Source: Kushneria konosiri
GTDB taxonomy: Bacteria; Pseudomonadota; Gammaproteobacteria; Pseudomonadales; Halomonadaceae
Length of the DNA: 64,000 bases
Direction: 5' to 3'
Assembly: GCF_002155145.1 (NCBI RefSeq)
Contig: NZ_CP021323.1
Location: forward strand, 1,860,001 to 1,924,000
Shown here piece by piece: positions 55,910-64,000 of the stretch (position 1 is the first letter of the stretch; every line of letters begins with the position of its first letter). Made by a program: the position numbers and the translations under genes. The notes beneath the pieces are model-generated. The model did not search any database, had not been told where the DNA came from, and worked only from the letters and a program-made list of their open reading frames with translations.

Positions 55910-55938
55910 ACCCGGCGCCCATGGCGCCGGGTTTTTTT
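55910..55938 (+). terminator. Terminator of katG, fused to the distal CRISPR end
   Basis: ACCCGGCGCC / GGCGCCGGGT stem followed by seven T. The T-run overlaps the first bases of the degenerate last repeat of the array. Confidence 0.9.
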
Positions 55939-57461
55939 ATGCGGCCTATGCGGCAGCCAAGGCAAAAAGCCTTTTGAAACCCTTTAAGGGTAATTTCTGA
56001 GCTGCCTGGGCGGCAGCCAACGGACATCGGTCGATGATGTCTGGGGCGTTGGTTTTCTGAGCTGCCTGTGCGGCAGCCAACTGATCGCTGCTTGTTACCA
56101 ATCAAGCCGATGTTTTCTGAGCTGCCTGTGCGGCAGCCAACGCGTACTCGTTCTCGAGCGTGGACACGTACCATTTCTGAGCTGCCTGTGCGGCAGCCAA
56201 CAACCGCCCCATGGGGTACGCCCTGTCACGGCATTTCTGAGCTGCCTGTGCGGCAGCCAACAAGCCGTGAGCCTTTCGCGAAGACGTGGAGCGTTTCTGA
56301 GCTGCCTGGGCGGCAGCCAACTACATCAAAGTCGACGCCGGCGACGGTCTCCCTTTCTGAGCTGCCTGGGCGGCAGCCAACACGGCCCACAGGTGCGCCT
56401 CAGCGATCGAGTCTTTCTGAGCTGCCTGGGCGGCAGCCAACCGTAATCGTTGACGACACACTGAACATGGGTGTTTCTGAGCTGCCTGGGCGGCAGCCAA
56501 CAGCTGGCGCAACACACCTAGCAAACCTGTGCCTTTCTGAGCTGCCTGGGCGGCAGCCAACTTGAGGGCGCGAAAGCAGGCCGAGCATCCGCATTTCTGA
56601 GCTGCCTGGGCGGCAGCCAACAACTGCCAGTGCTTTCCCAGCATTACCAGCCATTTCTGAGCTGCCTGGGCGGCAGCCAACGATGAGGCGACCAGCTACG
56701 CGGTGGACGATGATTTCTGAGCTGCCTGGGCGGCAGCCAACGTGTCACCTTCTGCAGTTGTCCAGCCGTTGATTTTCTGAGCTGCCTGGGCGGCAGCCAA
56801 CCACAGAACAGCTCCCATGCCTCGACGTGCTCCTTTCTGAGCTGCCTGGGCGGCAGCCAACGCGCCTTTTATCTTGCCCGAAAGAAAGTCCCATTTCTGA
56901 GCTGCCTGGGCGGCAGCCAACGCGCCCACCCTCCCAAATGTTGATCGAGCGCATTTCTGAGCTGCCTGGGCGGCAGCCAACGCAGGGTTGCCGCCACTTC
57001 CCAGAACGGCTTGTTTCTGAGCTGCCTGGGCGGCAGCCAACCTCAAGCTGCACCTGGAGGCCGAGGCCCGTGCTTTCTGAGCTGCCTGGGCGGCAGCCAA
57101 CTTGTACTGCTGGGACTCAGATTGATAGCGTTCTTTCTGAGCTGCCTGGGCGGCAGCCAACACTGTTGTGTTGCAAAGCCGCCGCCCGTCATGTTTCTGA
57201 GCTGCCTGGGCGGCAGCCAACGGCTCGGGCGCGCTCGAGCGGCTGGTCAAGCTTTTCTGAGCTGCCTGGGCGGCAGCCAACCCGCCCGTCATGGGCGACG
57301 CCTCCTCTGACATTTTCTGAGCTGCCTGGGCGGCAGCCAACATGGAGCCATTGACCGGGATCGACATTGTAATTTTCTGAGCTGCCTGGGCGGCAGCCAA
57401 CCTCAGCTGTGCGGTTATCTGGCGGGTGGTGTTTTTCTGAGCTGCCTGGGCGGCAGCCAAC
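55934..57461 (-). CRISPR. Type I-F CRISPR array, 26 repeats and 25 spacers
   Basis: Repeats are 28 nt and spacers exactly 32 nt, giving an unbroken 60-bp period from 55994 to 57461 (25 repeats), plus a degenerate terminal repeat at 55934-55961 (22 of 28 bases match). In crRNA direction (minus strand) the repeat begins GTTGGCTGCCGCCCAGGCAG and ends CTCAGAAA; CTGCC/GGCAG form the Cas6f hairpin with a 5-nt loop. The leader and cas genes lie on the right and the degenerate repeat on the left, so the newest spacers are near 57430. Four repeats (56054, 56114, 56174 and 56234) carry A instead of C at position 13 of the crRNA-direction repeat, the centre of the loop. The repeat family matches E. coli/Pseudomonas I-F repeats. 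Confidence 0.99.
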
Positions 57462-57590
57462 TAGATAAAAATATATTTAATGCCCGGTTTTTAAAGAGCT
57501 TTCGAGCCAATTACCCTATCGAACCCTTTTTCAAAGCCTTTCTATAAGTCATTGATTTTGCGAGCGTCGAAAAACGCTCGCAAAAAAGGG
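57462..57590 (-). promoter_or_regulatory. CRISPR leader
   Basis: An AT-rich 129-bp stretch between csy4 and the first repeat. It contains a TAGATAAAAATATATTTAAT segment at the repeat end and a TTTGCGAGCG / CGCTCGCAAA hairpin (57557-57584) next to the csy4 stop. The leader carries the array promoter and the integration signals in I-F systems. The hairpin lacks a T-run, so it is not a standard terminator. Confidence 0.85.
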
Positions 57591-58160
57591 TCAAAACCAG
57601 GGGATCGTGGCTTCGTGGCTCAGGCCGTAGTGGTTAAAGCGACCATTGGCGGGCTGTGATTGCGGCTTGCCGTGCTCGATAAAGAGGCAAAAGCGCTGCC
57701 GGGTCGAGCGACTGGCCAGTTCAACGAAGGGAAGCGAGATCTGCTTGCCCGCCACTCCGGCGTAGATCTCTCGAGCCTGTGCTTCGGATACGTCGTGACG
57801 CTTGGCATAGCGTCGGACCCGACTGGGGCTGCCGGTATTGAACTGCCGTCGCTGTACGACGCAATGATGCACTCCGGCCGGAACAGGCGCGATCTCACTG
57901 CACGCCACAAGCTCACGAAGCCCTTTCAGCCATGGTTGCGCCAACAGCGTCTCAAGACGCTTTTTTTCGCCATGAAGTCGGAGTCGGTCGCCTGGGGTGC
58001 GCGCTCGTACGCCGGTTTTGTGGTCAGGAAAACTGACGCCGATGTCATTGGCGTCAAGGTCCTGAAGCGTCCGATGCAGCTTGCCGTACAGCGCCCCCAT
58101 CAGCATGGGAGGGGGGAAGTCCGGGTCCGGCCTCAGCCGAATGTCCACATAATGGTCCAT
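57591..58160 (-). CDS. cas6f: CRISPR RNA endonuclease Cas6f (Csy4)
   Basis: This 189-residue protein cuts the pre-crRNA at the base of the repeat hairpin and stays bound to the 3' end of the crRNA. Catalytic H29 (GKLHRTL) is at the same number as in Pseudomonas aeruginosa Csy4. The Arg-rich helix is represented by RVRRYAKRH (about 114-122), which reads the repeat stem. The C terminus ends GLSHEATIPWF. It begins 3 nt after the csy3 stop, and its ribosome-binding sequence lies in the end of csy3. It is the last cas gene before the leader. Confidence 0.97.
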   Translation of the reverse strand: MDHYVDIRLRPDPDFPPPMLMGALYGKLHRTLQDLDANDIGVSFPDHKTGVRARTPGDRLRLHGEKKRLETLLAQPWLKGLRELVACSEIAPVPAGVHHCVVQRRQFNTGSPSRVRRYAKRHDVSEAQAREIYAGVAGKQISLPFVELASRSTRQRFCLFIEHGKPQSQPANGRFNHYGLSHEATIPWF

Positions 58161-58163
58161 GGT

Positions 58164-59198
58164 TTACCCCGCATCGCCGAAGACGCCGCCGCGGATCAGG
58201 GTCGCCATCACGAAGTGCTGGTTTTCGACCGACGGTGTTTGATCTTTTAACAACCAGTTGTCCAGCAGATTGTAGAAGTCGACCTTCTGCTTCGGCTGAC
58301 GGTAGGCCGCACCCTGCGTCGTGACCGAACCGTAGGGCTCCACGGCGATAGGGCCCAGGTCGGCGCCGTCTTCAGGGGCCGGATACCAGGTATCGATGGT
58401 ACGCAGGGCATTGCCGAGCTTTTGCGAGTGGATGGCGGCGTTTTTGTCGTCGCCAATGCTGTAGAGTGTTTTGCTCTTGTCACCGCGCGCGCGATCCAGA
58501 ATCAGCTCCTGGGACGGAAAGACTTCCTGACCGGTCCCCACGCGCGCGAACGCCACCACGTCGAGCAGCAGATACTGCTCGCCAGCGAGCGCGGCGGCGA
58601 TGCTCTCGCCCAGCTGGCGGGTATCTTCGGTGCCGGCGAAATCACGCATCGAGTGCTCGAGCGCGTCAAAGGTCCACGTCTTTTCCGCCTGACCGCCTTT
58701 CATCTGACGGACCGTGACCGCCACCTGCTCGGCGCCCATGCGGTTGCGCCAGAGAAAGCGACCGTTGGCAAGGTTGCAGGCATAGCGGTGCGCCAGCTCA
58801 TGAAAACCGTGTTCGCTGACGTAGCCGCTCACGGTTTGTTTGAGCTTGTGCTGATACTCGGCATTGTTGCAGGCGGAGGGTTTGCCGGCACCGGCCAGCA
58901 CGCGCAGGGTGAAACGCACCGCAAGCGTATCGGCGTTGTGGGGCAGGGCGGCGACATCAACAGTTTGAAGATTGGGGTTTTCAATGGCGGCGTCGAGTTT
59001 GGCCGGATCCTGATCCTTTGCCTTCAGTCGGTTGGAAATGGTGCCACGCACCGATTTCTCGCGAACCGGAATGCCGGGCCATGTCATGTATTGCTCGCGT
59101 GCGTCCCATGAGCCTGCGCTGAACAGCGCATCGGAAGGGTCGAGCTTGCGCTCGAATGCGAGGACGGAGGCAGTCTTGAGAGCGTCACTTTTAGCCAT
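58164..59198 (-). CDS. csy3: CRISPR Cascade backbone protein Cas7f (Csy3)
   Basis: The 344-residue RAMP-fold subunit polymerises along the crRNA as six copies in the I-F surveillance complex. The opening [23 protein letters not shown] and the [21 protein letters not shown] block are typical Csy3 sequence. GGAG precedes the ATG. It follows csy2 by 17 nt and precedes csy4 by 3 nt. Confidence 0.97.
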
Positions 59199-59215: not shown

Positions 59216-60208
59216 TCAGTCGTTGTCAGCGTGGGTAAGGACATAGTCGTTGGTCAGGCGATAGACGCCGCGTTCAAGATCGTTGTTGACGAACCACAGC
59301 AGTGCATCGGCCGAACGCAGGCGGTGCGGGCTGACCCACTCGCCGATTGAATAGAGGCTTTCGACGAACTGAAACGGCACGCTCGGATCGCGGGCATTGG
59401 CAACGTCGCCGGGATCAAACAGTTCGGAAATGGCGCCGTAGCCGACCGGAATCGGCACCAGCCAGCCGGGGTAGGGGCGGCGAATCCCCCACGTCGCCAC
59501 GTCCTTGTCCTGACCATTTGAATCCTGCTGTGTCTCGATCCGGCACTCATGATTTAAACGGCAGAGGTCGAGCCAGGCATCGAGCGCGGTGGCACTGTCG
59601 TTCGTGGCCTTTAGCGTTTCGGTGTGCTCGGTCAGATAGTCATCGCGCAGCACCAGTGCAAATCCGGGCAGCAGCCGACGTTTGAGCCGGCGCCATTGCC
59701 TGGCGCGCTTTTCCTCGTCGGCATCGAAAGTGATCAGTTCGGGACGCTGACGTGTCGAATCGCTCAGGGGTGGCATCACGCTGCCGCCGGCAATGCGCAT
59801 ACCCTGCACCTGTTCGAATAATCGCCTGGCGATATCCAGGCGGCGCTCAATGCTGGCGAGGTCATCGCCATCGGACTCGACGCCGATCAGTAGCGAGACC
59901 TCCAGGTGCGCACGCCCCTCTTCGACGATGGCCGCCGTGTTGCCAGACTTGTCCACCGGGTTGCGCGTGAGGTGGAATGCCCTGGTGAAACCGCCCTCTA
60001 TCACCTGCGGTTCGATGTGATGACACACCACACCGATACCTTCGAAGAGAAGCTTGATATCTTCGGGCAGGTGGCGCTCCAGTGCATGAATCGCGCCCAT
60101 GAACGCGCTCATGGCGGGAAAACCCCATGTCATGGCGCTCGAGATGGCATTAGCGTTTTGAATGCGCAGGCGCGGCAGGATGAGAAGATGCTGGATAGGC
60201 TCGGTCAC
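59216..60208 (-). CDS. csy2: CRISPR Cascade subunit Cas5f (Csy2)
   Basis: This 330-residue subunit pairs with Csy1 at the 5' handle of the crRNA. The opening [32 protein letters not shown] is split here as [13 protein letters not shown] and [10 protein letters not shown], characteristic of Csy2. The start is GTG at 60208, forming GTGA with the csy1 stop (4-nt overlap). The protein is full length, with no break. Confidence 0.96.
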
Positions 60209-61551
60209 GCTGCGTCTCCTTCGGCTTCGTCGTCATCACGCAGAACGTCCTGCAGGTCGTCGAGCTGGCGGCGGAAGCTTTTCAGCACGCCATCGAACCG
60301 GTTTTTCCAGTGTTCGTGCTCAACGTCGCCAAGGTTAAGAGAGCTTTTGCGGTTCAGCGCGCGATTGAGCCACACGGCGGCTCGTTGACGGATGTCCTCG
60401 TGCCATTCGGTCTTTCGGCGAGCCTCGGCAAACTCAACATCCTGCTCGGCGCGTCCGGGGTCGAGCCAGTACTGCTCTTCCGGTGCGAGCTGACAGCGTT
60501 CGTCGGTTGTCCATCCGGCCTGAATCGAATGAATGTCGAAAGTGAACAGCATCAACTCGTCGACCAGCATGGCGGTCAGGTCGTCGCGCAGATCGCGTGT
60601 ATGCATGTTCGCCGCGGGGTCGGATTCGAGAAAGCGCTTGAGGTCATCGAGCGTGCGTCGGACGTTCTGACGCCGGCCAAACGTTTGAAACGCATCGCGC
60701 ATGGGGGGGTAAACATCGCGTGATTGCCAGTGGGGCGGTAGTGAGGCGAGCAGGTAGTTCTGGCCGCCGCGCTCGCTATTGAGCTGGGAGATATTCTGCG
60801 GCTTGGTGCCGCCGAATTTCTGCACGGCCAGATTGAGATAGTCGGCGTAACCGCCTTCAAACACTGCATTGTCTCGCCGCGCTTTACGACCGGCTTTGGC
60901 ACGTTCGCCGAAGCGCGCCTCGCTCAGCTGTGCGTAGAAGGGATGCGCCAGGGCCGTGGCATAGAGCGGCGACAGCAGGCGATAGTTTGCATCCTCGCAG
61001 GGATCATCACCGACCAGCCAGTACAGCTGTTTGCCGCGCGCGTGAGAGCTCGGTGTACCCTTGGGTTCGACGATATCTGCGAAGGCCTGCACCCAGGACT
61101 GTGCCTCGTCGCAGTCGTCACTGAGCGCTTCTATCAGGGCTTTATCGCCTTCCAGCGCCCGCTCCAGCAGGGAGCGTCCTTCCCACTGAAGCTTCAGGAA
61201 CTTGTAGACGTCCAGGGCGGCTGCATTGCCGACCACATCGCCATCAAAATTGACAGGTAGGCAGTGGCTGCCGACCAGCGCGCTGCGCTCGAGCTGGCCG
61301 GGCTCTACGTAGAGATTGGTGCCTTTGGCGTCCGGGTGAATCGCCTTGAGTGAATGGGTGACCACCTGAAGCTGACTGACGCGTCGTGCGGCGTCGGCCA
61401 GCCAGGCCTGCGGCTCGAACTGCTGCTGCAATTTGAGATAAGCGGGATCATCCGGGGCAAGCTTTTCCGTTTTGGTCTGAAAACGGTCTCGGATAAAGCC
61501 ATGAAGCAACGCTTTTAGTGATGGCGGTGGGCTATCGACTGGTTCTGACAT
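60205..61551 (-). CDS. csy1: CRISPR Cascade large subunit Cas8f (Csy1)
   Basis: This 448-residue subunit recognises the PAM and recruits Cas3 in the I-F complex. The sequence from SLKALLHGFIRDRFQTKTEKL on, the NLYVEPGQLERSALVGS region and GGTKPQNISQLNSERGGQNYLLASLPP (quoted in pieces as GGTKPQNISQLN) are family typical. The ATG at 61551 with GGGGGAAGC upstream is preferred. An ATG at 61581 overlaps the cas3 stop as ATGA and would add 10 residues. It overlaps csy2 by 4 nt. Confidence 0.95.
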   Translation of the reverse strand: MSEPVDSPPPSLKALLHGFIRDRFQTKTEKLAPDDPAYLKLQQQFEPQAWLADAARRVSQLQVVTHSLKAIHPDAKGTNLYVEPGQLERSALVGSHCLPVNFDGDVVGNAAALDVYKFLKLQWEGRSLLERALEGDKALIEALSDDCDEAQSWVQAFADIVEPKGTPSSHARGKQLYWLVGDDPCEDANYRLLSPLYATALAHPFYAQLSEARFGERAKAGRKARRDNAVFEGGYADYLNLAVQKFGGTKPQNISQLNSERGGQNYLLASLPPHWQSRDVYPPMRDAFQTFGRRQNVRRTLDDLKRFLESDPAANMHTRDLRDDLTAMLVDELMLFTFDIHSIQAGWTTDERCQLAPEEQYWLDPGRAEQDVEFAEARRKTEWHEDIRQRAAVWLNRALNRKSSLNLGDVEHEHWKNRFDGVLKSFRRQLDDLQDVLRDDDEAEGDAA

Positions 61552-61577
61552 GCTTCCCCCATTGATAGAGTTGATGG

Positions 61578-64000
61578 TCATTTCCTCCTCACAAATCCCA
61601 GCGCGGGATGAAAGTGCCATCCCTGCGGGGCGCGATCGGGTTTTAAACGAATGCGGCCAAAGCGCTCCGCGCAACGCGTCAGCGTCATGTCCATGGCATC
61701 GGCTTGTTCGGTCAGCGCAGCAATGTAGTCGTGCTCGTTCCAGGGTGTGATGCGAGGATTCATCAGTCCCTCGTCTGACAGACGATCCAGCTCGGACTCA
61801 GTCGGTATCAGCCTTTCCTCTTTGCCATCCTGCTCTATACGTCGAAATCCATAATTCTCTTCGCTCTCATCCGGATACAGCACGAATTCGGCATCCGGTT
61901 CGTTATCCTCGCGAAAGGGTTGTTGCTGGATTGGCACGGCGCTCAACGACATCGCTGACGGCCGATAAAATAGATAAGCGCCCAGATGGATCGGTTTCCT
62001 GCGACGGGAGCGTCGCTGTTCGTATGCGGATAGGTCTGCAACGCCTTCGACCATCAGCGCCCTGAGTCGCGCGTGCTCCAGATCGACCAGCCTGGTCGCG
62101 GGTTCAGGCGGCTCGGCCGCCAGCAGTCGAGGTCGGGAGTCGATGACGTCAATCTCTTCATCGCGCAGTAGCGCGGTGAGCCGGTGCTTGCTCAGCGGCC
62201 ATACCTGTTCTGTCTCAAAGCCGGGGCGGCAGAAGGCCGGGCGCTTGCGCGAAAGATGACGCACGTTGGCATCGAGCAGCGCAATATTGGAGGCAGTGAC
62301 AGGCTCATGGCGGTGACGACGTACACGTCCGGCAAGCTGAATAATCGAGCGCATGGACGATGGCTCAACCACAGCCCAATCGTAGTCATGATCCCGCCCT
62401 ACCTCGGTTACCGGTGAGCCGAGCACGATAAACAGGTGGTCCCTGGGCTTGCCATTTAACCGCTGGCGAATATCCGGCAGCTCGAATACGGCCTCGGGCA
62501 CGCGTCGATCGAGTGCCTGATCCAGCCGATACTCCAGGCGCGAGCGCAGCAACAGCGGAAACTGAGAGTGGTAGACGCAGAGATGAATCTGCGTGCCCTT
62601 GGGAATCTCGGCGCGGTAGAGGGCCTGTGCCACCGCCACCAGCGGCTCGATGTTGGCCATGCGTATCAGGCCGAAACTGACGCGCTTGCCGCTGTTCGGG
62701 TCGATGCTGTGGTGGTGCCGGTGAAGCGTCATGGCCTCTTCAAGGACCGTACCGGCCACGGCATCATGCACGTCATCAGGATGGGGCGAGGCGGCGGAGA
62801 TCGGGACGATATAACCCCGTCGGCGTGGCGTCAGTGCGGCAAGTTTCGAGGCGCGCTGACGAGCAAATGTCTCATGCGCAGCGTCAAATGCCTCGCCCCT
62901 GGCGCAGTGTTGATGCGTGCAGCCGTGCTCGTCGAACCAAGCACACACTGGATTAACCGGAGCGCCGGGCATGCCACGGTGGCGCTGATATTCGGCGCGG
63001 CCTTCCCGATAGGCATCGAATAAACCACGCACCAATGCCGGCGGCAGGGTGGCGGAAGAGAGCAGCACGCGCGAGCCCAGCAGGCCGGTCCAGTAGACCA
63101 GCCTTGTCAGCGCAGGCAGATCATCAATATCGAAGTCATCCGGCTCATCCAGTACCAGATCGCCACTCATTAAACGCAGCATGGGAGCGATTTGGTGGCC
63201 GCCTCGGAGGCTTTCCGTCGCGGGCATCAGATGATCGATGGTGCACACCAGCACAGGCGCCTGAATCAATGCCTGTGCCTGTGGATCTGCCACGATCCTG
63301 CCCAGCACGCGGTGCGCCTCAGGGTCGCCTTCAAACACCACGTGACTCTCATCATCGAGCAGCTCGGCGCGGGACTCCGAGCCGCCGGATCTCTGCTGAT
63401 GTTCAAACAGCGCGCGGCTGGCGCTACCGCCCACCCGAATGGCCAGTTCGTCACCATTCAGCCCGAGCCGTTCGCGATAGGCCTGCCCGGTCTGCAGGGT
63501 CAGGGTGCGCAGGCCGAGTGCAATCGAGAAGCGCGCGCCGGTCTCCGGATCCGCCAGCGCGTAGAGAATACGGCCGTTGGCGATGGTCTTGCCGCAGCCG
63601 GTCGAGGCCATGTTGATGCCAAAAAAGCCATGCTCATGGGCCTTGTTGCGTAGCCCTGCCGCCAGGTCGTACGCCTTGTCCTGCCAGCGAAAACGCGCGT
63701 CGCGGCTGCGGGCCCTGAATCCTTTATGACGGGCGATGCGTGGCAGCGCCGAGGTCATGTCCGGCAGGTGATGGATGATCTCACCGGTCGCCCGCACCAC
63801 GCCCAGAAGATGCTCGATCAACGGCTGGCACAGATGACGTTTGCCATTAATGAACGTGGTGTTGGCGTACAGTGGGCCGGTCCACTGACCGTCCAGACGC
63901 CCTTTGTCGGTCAGACTGGAGTAATGGTGGTCTGCCAGCATCAGCGCCAGCCGTGCCAAGTGCATCACCCAGGGCGATTCGAGCGGCGGTGTTTCCCAGC
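61578..64000 (-). CDS. cas3: Cas3 helicase-nuclease of type I-F (partial, likely Cas2-3 fusion)
   Basis: The frame is open from the window edge and ends at 61578, giving more than 800 residues. The HD-type LADHHYSSL sequence is near the visible start. Helicase motif I MASTGCGKTIANG, motif II LVLDEPDDFD, motif III SSATLPP and the conserved QLAGRVRRH motif VI are all present in order. In type I-F, Cas3 carries an N-terminal Cas2 domain; that part would lie beyond the window, as would cas1. It degrades DNA bound by the Csy complex and also takes part in primed adaptation. It is coupled to csy1 with no gap. Confidence 0.96.
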   Translation of the reverse strand, partial: WETPPLESPWVMHLARLALMLADHHYSSLTDKGRLDGQWTGPLYANTTFINGKRHLCQPLIEHLLGVVRATGEIIHHLPDMTSALPRIARHKGFRARSRDARFRWQDKAYDLAAGLRNKAHEHGFFGINMASTGCGKTIANGRILYALADPETGARFSIALGLRTLTLQTGQAYRERLGLNGDELAIRVGGSASRALFEHQQRSGGSESRAELLDDESHVVFEGDPEAHRVLGRIVADPQAQALIQAPVLVCTIDHLMPATESLRGGHQIAPMLRLMSGDLVLDEPDDFDIDDLPALTRLVYWTGLLGSRVLLSSATLPPALVRGLFDAYREGRAEYQRHRGMPGAPVNPVCAWFDEHGCTHQHCARGEAFDAAHETFARQRASKLAALTPRRRGYIVPISAASPHPDDVHDAVAGTVLEEAMTLHRHHHSIDPNSGKRVSFGLIRMANIEPLVAVAQALYRAEIPKGTQIHLCVYHSQFPLLLRSRLEYRLDQALDRRVPEAVFELPDIRQRLNGKPRDHLFIVLGSPVTEVGRDHDYDWAVVEPSSMRSIIQLAGRVRRHRHEPVTASNIALLDANVRHLSRKRPAFCRPGFETEQVWPLSKHRLTALLRDEEIDVIDSRPRLLAAEPPEPATRLVDLEHARLRALMVEGVADLSAYEQRRSRRRKPIHLGAYLFYRPSAMSLSAVPIQQQPFREDNEPDAEFVLYPDESEENYGFRRIEQDGKEERLIPTESELDRLSDEGLMNPRITPWNEHDYIAALTEQADAMDMTLTRCAERFGRIRLKPDRAPQGWHFHPALGFVRRK

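Follow-up and report, generated by a model that had tools for sequence, protein, structure and literature searches.

Two spacers of a natural type I-F CRISPR array in Kushneria konosiri share 12 nt and imply a CC PAM

Two spacers of a type I-F CRISPR array in Kushneria konosiri, here called S3 and S5, share 12 nt and were very probably taken from one invader, at stretches of its DNA that overlap. S3 also contains the two bases that would have preceded the S5 protospacer, and these are CC. We regard it as likely that the two are siblings of one adaptation burst, captured beside CC at one invader locus, and this is the best explanation of the pair that we can offer. Although ordinary, the pair illustrates a known process well and clearly. 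Here, we describe the locus and the overlap, place the pair in a survey of overlapping spacers from other type I-F arrays, and weigh the ways in which it may have arisen.

The type I-F locus

The window, which is the whole stretch of DNA analysed, comprises 64,000 nucleotides of contig NZ_CP021323.1. It contains one CRISPR array (array 1) and most of the associated operon, which continues beyond the window into locus L004:

55934..57461, minus strand: type I-F CRISPR array 1, with 25 canonical or near-canonical 28-nt repeats, a degenerate distal repeat and 32-nt spacers
55934-55961, minus strand: the degenerate distal repeat of array 1
57462..57590, minus strand: candidate leader between array 1 and cas6f, assigned by position only
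57591..58160, minus strand: cas6f/csy4 (TIGR02563, 164 bits)
58164..59198, minus strand: csy3 (cas7f; TIGR02566, 450 bits)
59216..60208, minus strand: csy2 (cas5f; TIGR02565, 307 bits)
60205..61674, minus strand: csy1 (cas8f; TIGR02564, 390 bits), start codon uncertain, profile match from residue 84
61578..63968, minus strand: the part of cas3f (Cas2-3) inside the window (TIGR02562, 862 bits, profile positions 314-1109 of 1110)
L004 1905-2885, beyond the window after cas3f: cas1f (TIGR03637, 505 bits)

By its genes, repeat, spacer length and PAM, the locus is a type I-F1 CRISPR-Cas system. Csy1, Csy2, Csy3, Cas6f, Cas3f and Cas1f all score above the NCBIfam curated cut-offs (6/6, with Cas3f scanned as its in-window part). 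The array 1 repeat, GTTGGCTGCCGCCCAGGCAGCTCAGAAA, reads on the minus strand, and its 28-nt length and the 32-nt spacers are those of type I-F1; the Rfam CRISPR-DR4 cut-off is attained on only four of the repeats. There are 24 spacers within 25 repeats and a 25th ahead of the degenerate end repeat, so that the figure of 25 spacers in the original prediction was a fair one. The sense of the repeat, the degenerate distal end and the position of cas6f on the right together suggest that the crRNA strand is the minus strand and that the leader lies on the right. With the leader on the right, the low-coordinate spacers would be the oldest, and S5 would be older than S3.

A second array (array 2, in L004 outside the window) is small, has the opposite orientation and lies at the other end of the operon. 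Its two leader-proximal repeats (L004 3837-3920) are 26 nt long, with a 2-bp deletion relative to the farther 28-nt repeats, as would be expected if a later acquisition had duplicated an already shortened repeat. An ORF resembling VapC, with a PIN domain scoring under the curated cut-offs, lies between cas1 and array 2 (L004 3277-3708). A 74% match beside array 2 was considered as leader similarity and rejected, as it maps back to repeat and spacer alone.

The overlap between S3 and S5

The features that make up the pair are these:

57162..57193, minus strand: spacer S5, fifth from the leader, the older member of the pair
57182..57193, minus strand: the 12 nt in common with S3, which form the 5′ (seed) end of S5
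57222..57253, minus strand: spacer S4, between S3 and S5 and overlapping neither
57282..57313, minus strand: spacer S3, third from the leader, the newer member of the pair
57282..57295, minus strand: CC (57294-57295) and the copy of the S5 seed (57282-57293) within S3, read from the sequence

The sequence CCGCCCGTCATG ends the spacer at 57162-57193 (at 57182-57193) and starts the spacer at 57282-57313 (at 57282-57293). In crRNA sense the two spacers dovetail over CATGACGGGCGG, with S3 upstream at an offset of 20, and merge into one 52-nt target. Direct reading and parsing of array 1 therefore bear out the 12-nt overlap and the 52-bp merge that had been proposed. The proposed flanking bases were also found: on the plus strand of the merge the first spacer (57162-57193) is followed by GG, i.e. 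CC in crRNA sense, and S3 read in crRNA sense holds CC and then the first 12 nt of S5, which makes the implied S5 PAM CC. The CC PAM is thus read in the array for S5, and expected for S3. The two protospacers lie on the same strand, S3 on the PAM side of S5, and exactly one spacer (S4) separates S3 from S5 in array 1.

Among the 24 spacers between canonical repeats, S3 and S5 form the sole suffix-prefix match of at least 7 nt, and all other pairs have at most 8 nt in common on either strand. A null model of 20,000 first-order Markov sets, each of 24 spacers and scored for same-strand suffix-prefix matches, yielded no set with 12 nt or more (0/20,000; maximum 11). Under uniform base frequencies, the chance of the array 1 overlap is 4.4e-5, or about 3e-6 with CC included. 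The earlier judgement that such a match is very unlikely by chance is upheld by both calculations.

Overlapping spacers in other type I-F arrays

Overlaps of this kind were surveyed in two sets of arrays. For a family set, 62 arrays were parsed and one spurious array was dropped; some of these arrays lie outside the family, since they were chosen among the matches listed. A class-wide set, gathered via cas6f (present in 35 of 369 genomes), supplied 29 arrays, and the survey comprised 90 arrays from 74 genomes with 5,008 spacers of 30-35 nt. Overlaps were counted if they were exact, at least 12 nt long and between spacers of the same genome, with identical spacers excluded. Left uncounted were 11-nt overlaps (two same-strand with CC, one opposite-strand without), overlaps with mismatches, and 61 identical spacer pairs, which were taken as array duplications.

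The survey gave 20 exact placements of at least 12 nt, from 19 pairs, against 0.2 expected from the different-genome rate. Where the PAM was readable it was CC in 15 of 16 cases, S5 included (14/15 without it), with the readings partly non-independent as three head-to-head pairs and one tandem-repeat pair (in L073) give two each. For comparison, CC was found in 3 of 13 different-genome overlaps of the same length, and it makes up 7.1% of the dinucleotides in family spacers. The single other reading is TC (L117), whose C is the first of CCC; perhaps this reflects the slipping described for type I-F in excerpts of PMC5059440. A held-out set, for which 28 of 37 genomes had cas6f, amounted to 957 spacers in 29 parsed arrays of 25 genomes. 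It contained three overlapping pairs with a CC PAM in each (3/3), after removal of two L160 rows in which one array had been read on both strands, and whose four PAM readings were not CC. Across all arrays other than array 1, the held-out set included, CC accounts for 17 of 18 readable PAMs, which are again partly non-independent.

Sequence shared beyond chance, as is expected of overlapping protospacers, is therefore present in S3 and S5. The overlap and PAM counts of the survey and the held-out set indicate that their merge very probably reproduces an actual contiguous target, with CC as the PAM. We infer a single contiguous invader behind the pair, and one invader locus with a CC PAM is strongly supported. 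On this basis the PAM is readable from arrays alone, for unidentified invaders.

Two further arrangements were seen in these arrays. Spacers 13 and 19 of L073 overlap twice, by 20 nt at one end and 19 nt at the other, implying that the target probably holds a tandem repeat of about 25 bp; CC is the implied PAM in both cases. The 61 identical spacer pairs in family arrays (L037, L040, L083 and others) often form blocks at constant spacing; such blocks are segment duplications within I-F arrays.

How the pair arose

In the explanation that we favour, each protospacer would have been chosen beside a CC PAM, and the DNA from which S3 was taken would have carried the S5 PAM and its first 12 nt intact. 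Cas1:Cas2-3 would have worked one strand of a region, and S3 and S5 would be sibling captures of the same infection or adaptation burst, a reading to which few pairs contribute. Uptake was most likely interference-driven and may have been set off by another spacer, rather than by S5 priming S3 canonically. If the two spacers share a locus, the S5 PAM and 12 nt held by S3 mean that S5 had not been escaped there by a PAM or early-seed mutation, which favours interference-driven uptake over escape-driven priming.

The spacing of overlapping pairs within arrays suggests sibling capture. In the survey, eight of nine exact same-strand pairs lie at most six spacers apart (2.0 expected), as against one of nine exact opposite-strand pairs (1.06 expected). 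This strand contrast was noticed after the fact and then fixed as a hypothesis before the held-out arrays, in which two of three same-strand pairs lie at most six apart (0.34 expected) and opposite-strand pairs number zero. Pooled, the counts are 10/12 same-strand (2.4 expected) versus 1/9 opposite-strand (Fisher p 0.002), a pair in L048 that spans two arrays having been excluded from the spacing count. Each set also holds one exact same-strand pair that is far apart, at 46 and 36 spacers. The closeness of exact same-strand pairs, which opposite-strand pairs do not share, points to sibling captures in one burst. Strand and spacing of overlapping pairs thus offer a target-free handle on natural adaptation bursts.

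This closeness is limited to exact pairs. Of the 11 within-array rows in which same-strand spacers overlap with 1-3 mismatches, 10 show a distance of more than six spacers, so that lying on the same strand is not sufficient by itself. Mismatched same-strand rows include L040 15/49, L049 1/35, L057 45/99, L113 4/75 and 46/94, and L114 11/43. The far mismatched pairs look as if they were later captures from diverged relatives of one invader.

The original prediction had proposed repeated and probably primed acquisition from one locus. Its first part is supported by the overlap, the CC PAM, the I-F genes and the survey. Its second part stands less well: priming by S5 fits poorly, with S3 on the same strand as S5, and is weakly supported, although another spacer may have primed both captures. 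Under canonical priming, S5 would have matched a returning, perhaps mutated, invader and recruited Cas1:Cas2-3, and S3 would have been taken alongside. Consistent with this, S3 is the newer spacer and touches the S5 protospacer, and primed spacers in type I-F cluster near the priming protospacer and fall off with distance, according to excerpts of PMC4117759. For type I-F, Staals et al. (2016; PMC5059440) place about 60-65% of the first spacers gained by priming on the non-primed strand and 5′ of the protospacer that primes, while the spread on the primed strand is more uniform and primed-strand spacers are present on both sides. S3 does not match that dominant strand geometry: it has the same orientation as S5 and lies on its PAM side, which puts it outside the main class of products expected from priming by S5; as the strand rule is a majority trend, this lowers the claim rather than excluding it. 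The head-to-head geometry that direct priming predicts is found in only 3 of 9 exact opposite-strand pairs, and the intact S5 PAM and 12-nt seed in the S3 source also speak against it. Taken together, we judge canonical priming of S3 by S5 unlikely.

Overlapping spacers would also result if one common invader had been met twice, independently and at different times, and sampled at a single naive hotspot on both occasions, and naive I-F acquisition does have hotspots, as described in part of PMC5059440. With a single spacer between S3 and S5, however, and with exact same-strand pairs lying much nearer to each other than random pairs do (10/12 at most six spacers apart, against 2.4 expected), we consider this course of events quite improbable. 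A chance 12-nt identity between unrelated spacers is improbable in the extreme, for although different-genome pairs do yield overlaps of 12-13 nt (10 placements in 12.3 million pairs), such overlaps number 4 in same-genome pairs against 0.18 expected, and the probability for array 1 is 4.4e-5 with the CC fitting too.

Searches for the target

The database search put forward with the original prediction was run against phages, plasmids, IMG/VR, genome_contigs and 275 genomes of the host family, and gave no match covering the 52 bp in these collections, which may omit records of the source genome or very near ones. With blastn, the merged 52-mer had no match covering 80% of its length among phages, where 12 records matched in part (the best over 34/52 bases at 88%, E 0.03), or among plasmids, where 45 records matched in part (the best of 8 shown at E 0.08). 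The viral_contigs of IMG/VR held no exact match (0) to the 32-nt core of the merge, to its codon-degenerate core, or to a 20-mer of S5 or of S3; a control scan of the same contigs with a 20-mer of the P2 sheath gave at least 120 matches. Thirteen exact matches to the 20-nt junction core in genome_contigs were rejected as chance, since 24-33 of the 52 bases agree overall, 20 of them by force of the search.

Within the 275 host-family genomes, and with up to three mismatches allowed, S3 and S5 were found in their own array only, each without a second copy in its own genome, and the degenerate merged pattern was found in none (0/275). S3, S4 and S5 had no match of 24/32 or better in 128 loci, made up of 8 stretches around S18 matches and 120 IMG/VR loci. 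Three cores taken as controls from further overlapping pairs likewise had no match in IMG/VR, and for one control pair the merge was not covered by any phage match; support for the merge is therefore statistical. Translated on the crRNA strand, the merge gives a 17-residue peptide without a stop codon. This peptide had no relative with the patterns used, and it was accordingly not called as a gene start.

Across the whole array, spacers matched 45 phage records and 12 plasmid records. Two of these array-wide matches were examined further, and the informative one belongs to a single spacer:

56382..56413, minus strand: spacer S18, matching a P2-like tail sheath gene, an external check of the PAM

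S18 agrees with gene FI (tail sheath) of phage P2 at 28/32 positions and, its own array aside, reaches 29/32 in 4 of the 275 host-family genomes; Pfam identifies the matched ORF as a phage sheath in L179, which belongs to one of the four. CC stands upstream of the S18 target in all five cases (5/5, P2 and the four family genomes). The CC 5′ of the protospacer in crRNA sense that characterises type I-F1 is thus found for S5, as read from S3, and for S18 in five targets. Spacer b4 of array 2 (L004 4041-4072) matches at 26-28/32 in three of the prophage neighbourhoods with S18 matches, preceded by TC, TC and CC. In one of the three, L304, which is the G049 contig that also carries an S18 match, Pfam assigns the ORF matched by b4 to the GPA-type phage replication proteins. 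The S18 and b4 matches indicate that the host records P2-like phages, and nothing in the evidence ties S3 and S5 to these. A weak match of S19 (25/32, preceded by CC) lies at about position 2373 of L308 (G150) on the minus strand, not far from the S18 match on that contig; a reversed-spacer control for it reached 24.

Overlap length and self-targeting

A same-strand or head-to-head overlap means that one spacer holds the PAM and seed of the other, and hence that the array is a partial target of its own crRNA. In array 1, crRNA S5 would have such a partial self-match, PAM included, at positions 57282-57295 within S3. In the survey and the held-out set together, exact PAM-side overlaps (n=15, one with TC in place of CC) range from 12 to 25 nt, and overlaps of 26-31 nt are all without a PAM (three of the seven PAM-less overlaps, one of them a 1-nt shift). 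The comparison at 26-31 nt, 0/15 PAM-side versus 3/7 PAM-less, gives a Fisher p of 0.023 with a cut that was picked after seeing the data; with the cut at 27, it is 0/15 versus 2/7 (p 0.09). Two inexact PAM-bearing overlaps of 26-27 nt, with 2-3 mismatches, occur in L040 and L081 (PAMs read by eye).

In excerpts of Tuminauskaite et al. (2020; PMC7296934), R-loops of up to 26 bp keep Cas2-3 of type I-F1 off and those of 32 bp switch it on. It is conceivable, if doubtful, that natural I-F arrays tolerate a self-match only below the R-loop length that activates Cas2-3, and that the overlap lengths record this checkpoint. If true, arrays would record the R-loop length tolerated by a cell within its own genome.

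Comparison with known systems

The merging of overlapping spacers has a precedent in an archaeon, in the work of Erdmann and Garrett (2012). In the excerpts of this work (PMC3468723), new spacers of Sulfolobus solfataricus were assembled into contigs, and overlaps are described as rare in natural Sulfolobus loci. Reading a PAM from overlapping spacers is likewise already known, and is reviewed in part of PMC4390879, and clustered uptake in type I-F is established by the excerpted accounts in PMC4117759 and PMC7056967. Among the titles and abstract openings listed for searches of open-licence PMC text with the terms used, there was no report of the strand-dependent spacing of overlapping spacers, or of the self-target limit.

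Compared with type I-F1 systems in general, the Kushneria konosiri locus is alike in genes, repeat, spacer length and PAM. Array 1 shows no notable difference from them, and array 2 differs by its two shortened repeats. The Sulfolobus solfataricus study, in its excerpted form (PMC3468723), likewise merged overlapping spacers into a target contig and read a PAM from it. There the spacers were acquired in experiments and the archaeal PAM was CCN, whereas our material is a natural I-F array together with a survey of natural arrays. Finally, I-F adaptation in Pectobacterium, as excerpted from PMC4117759 and PMC5059440, resembles the present case in its clustered uptake of several spacers from a single invader, its 32-nt spacers and its CC/GG PAM. 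The dominant strand geometry of its first primed spacers differs from that of S3 and S5, which here is known from the array alone.
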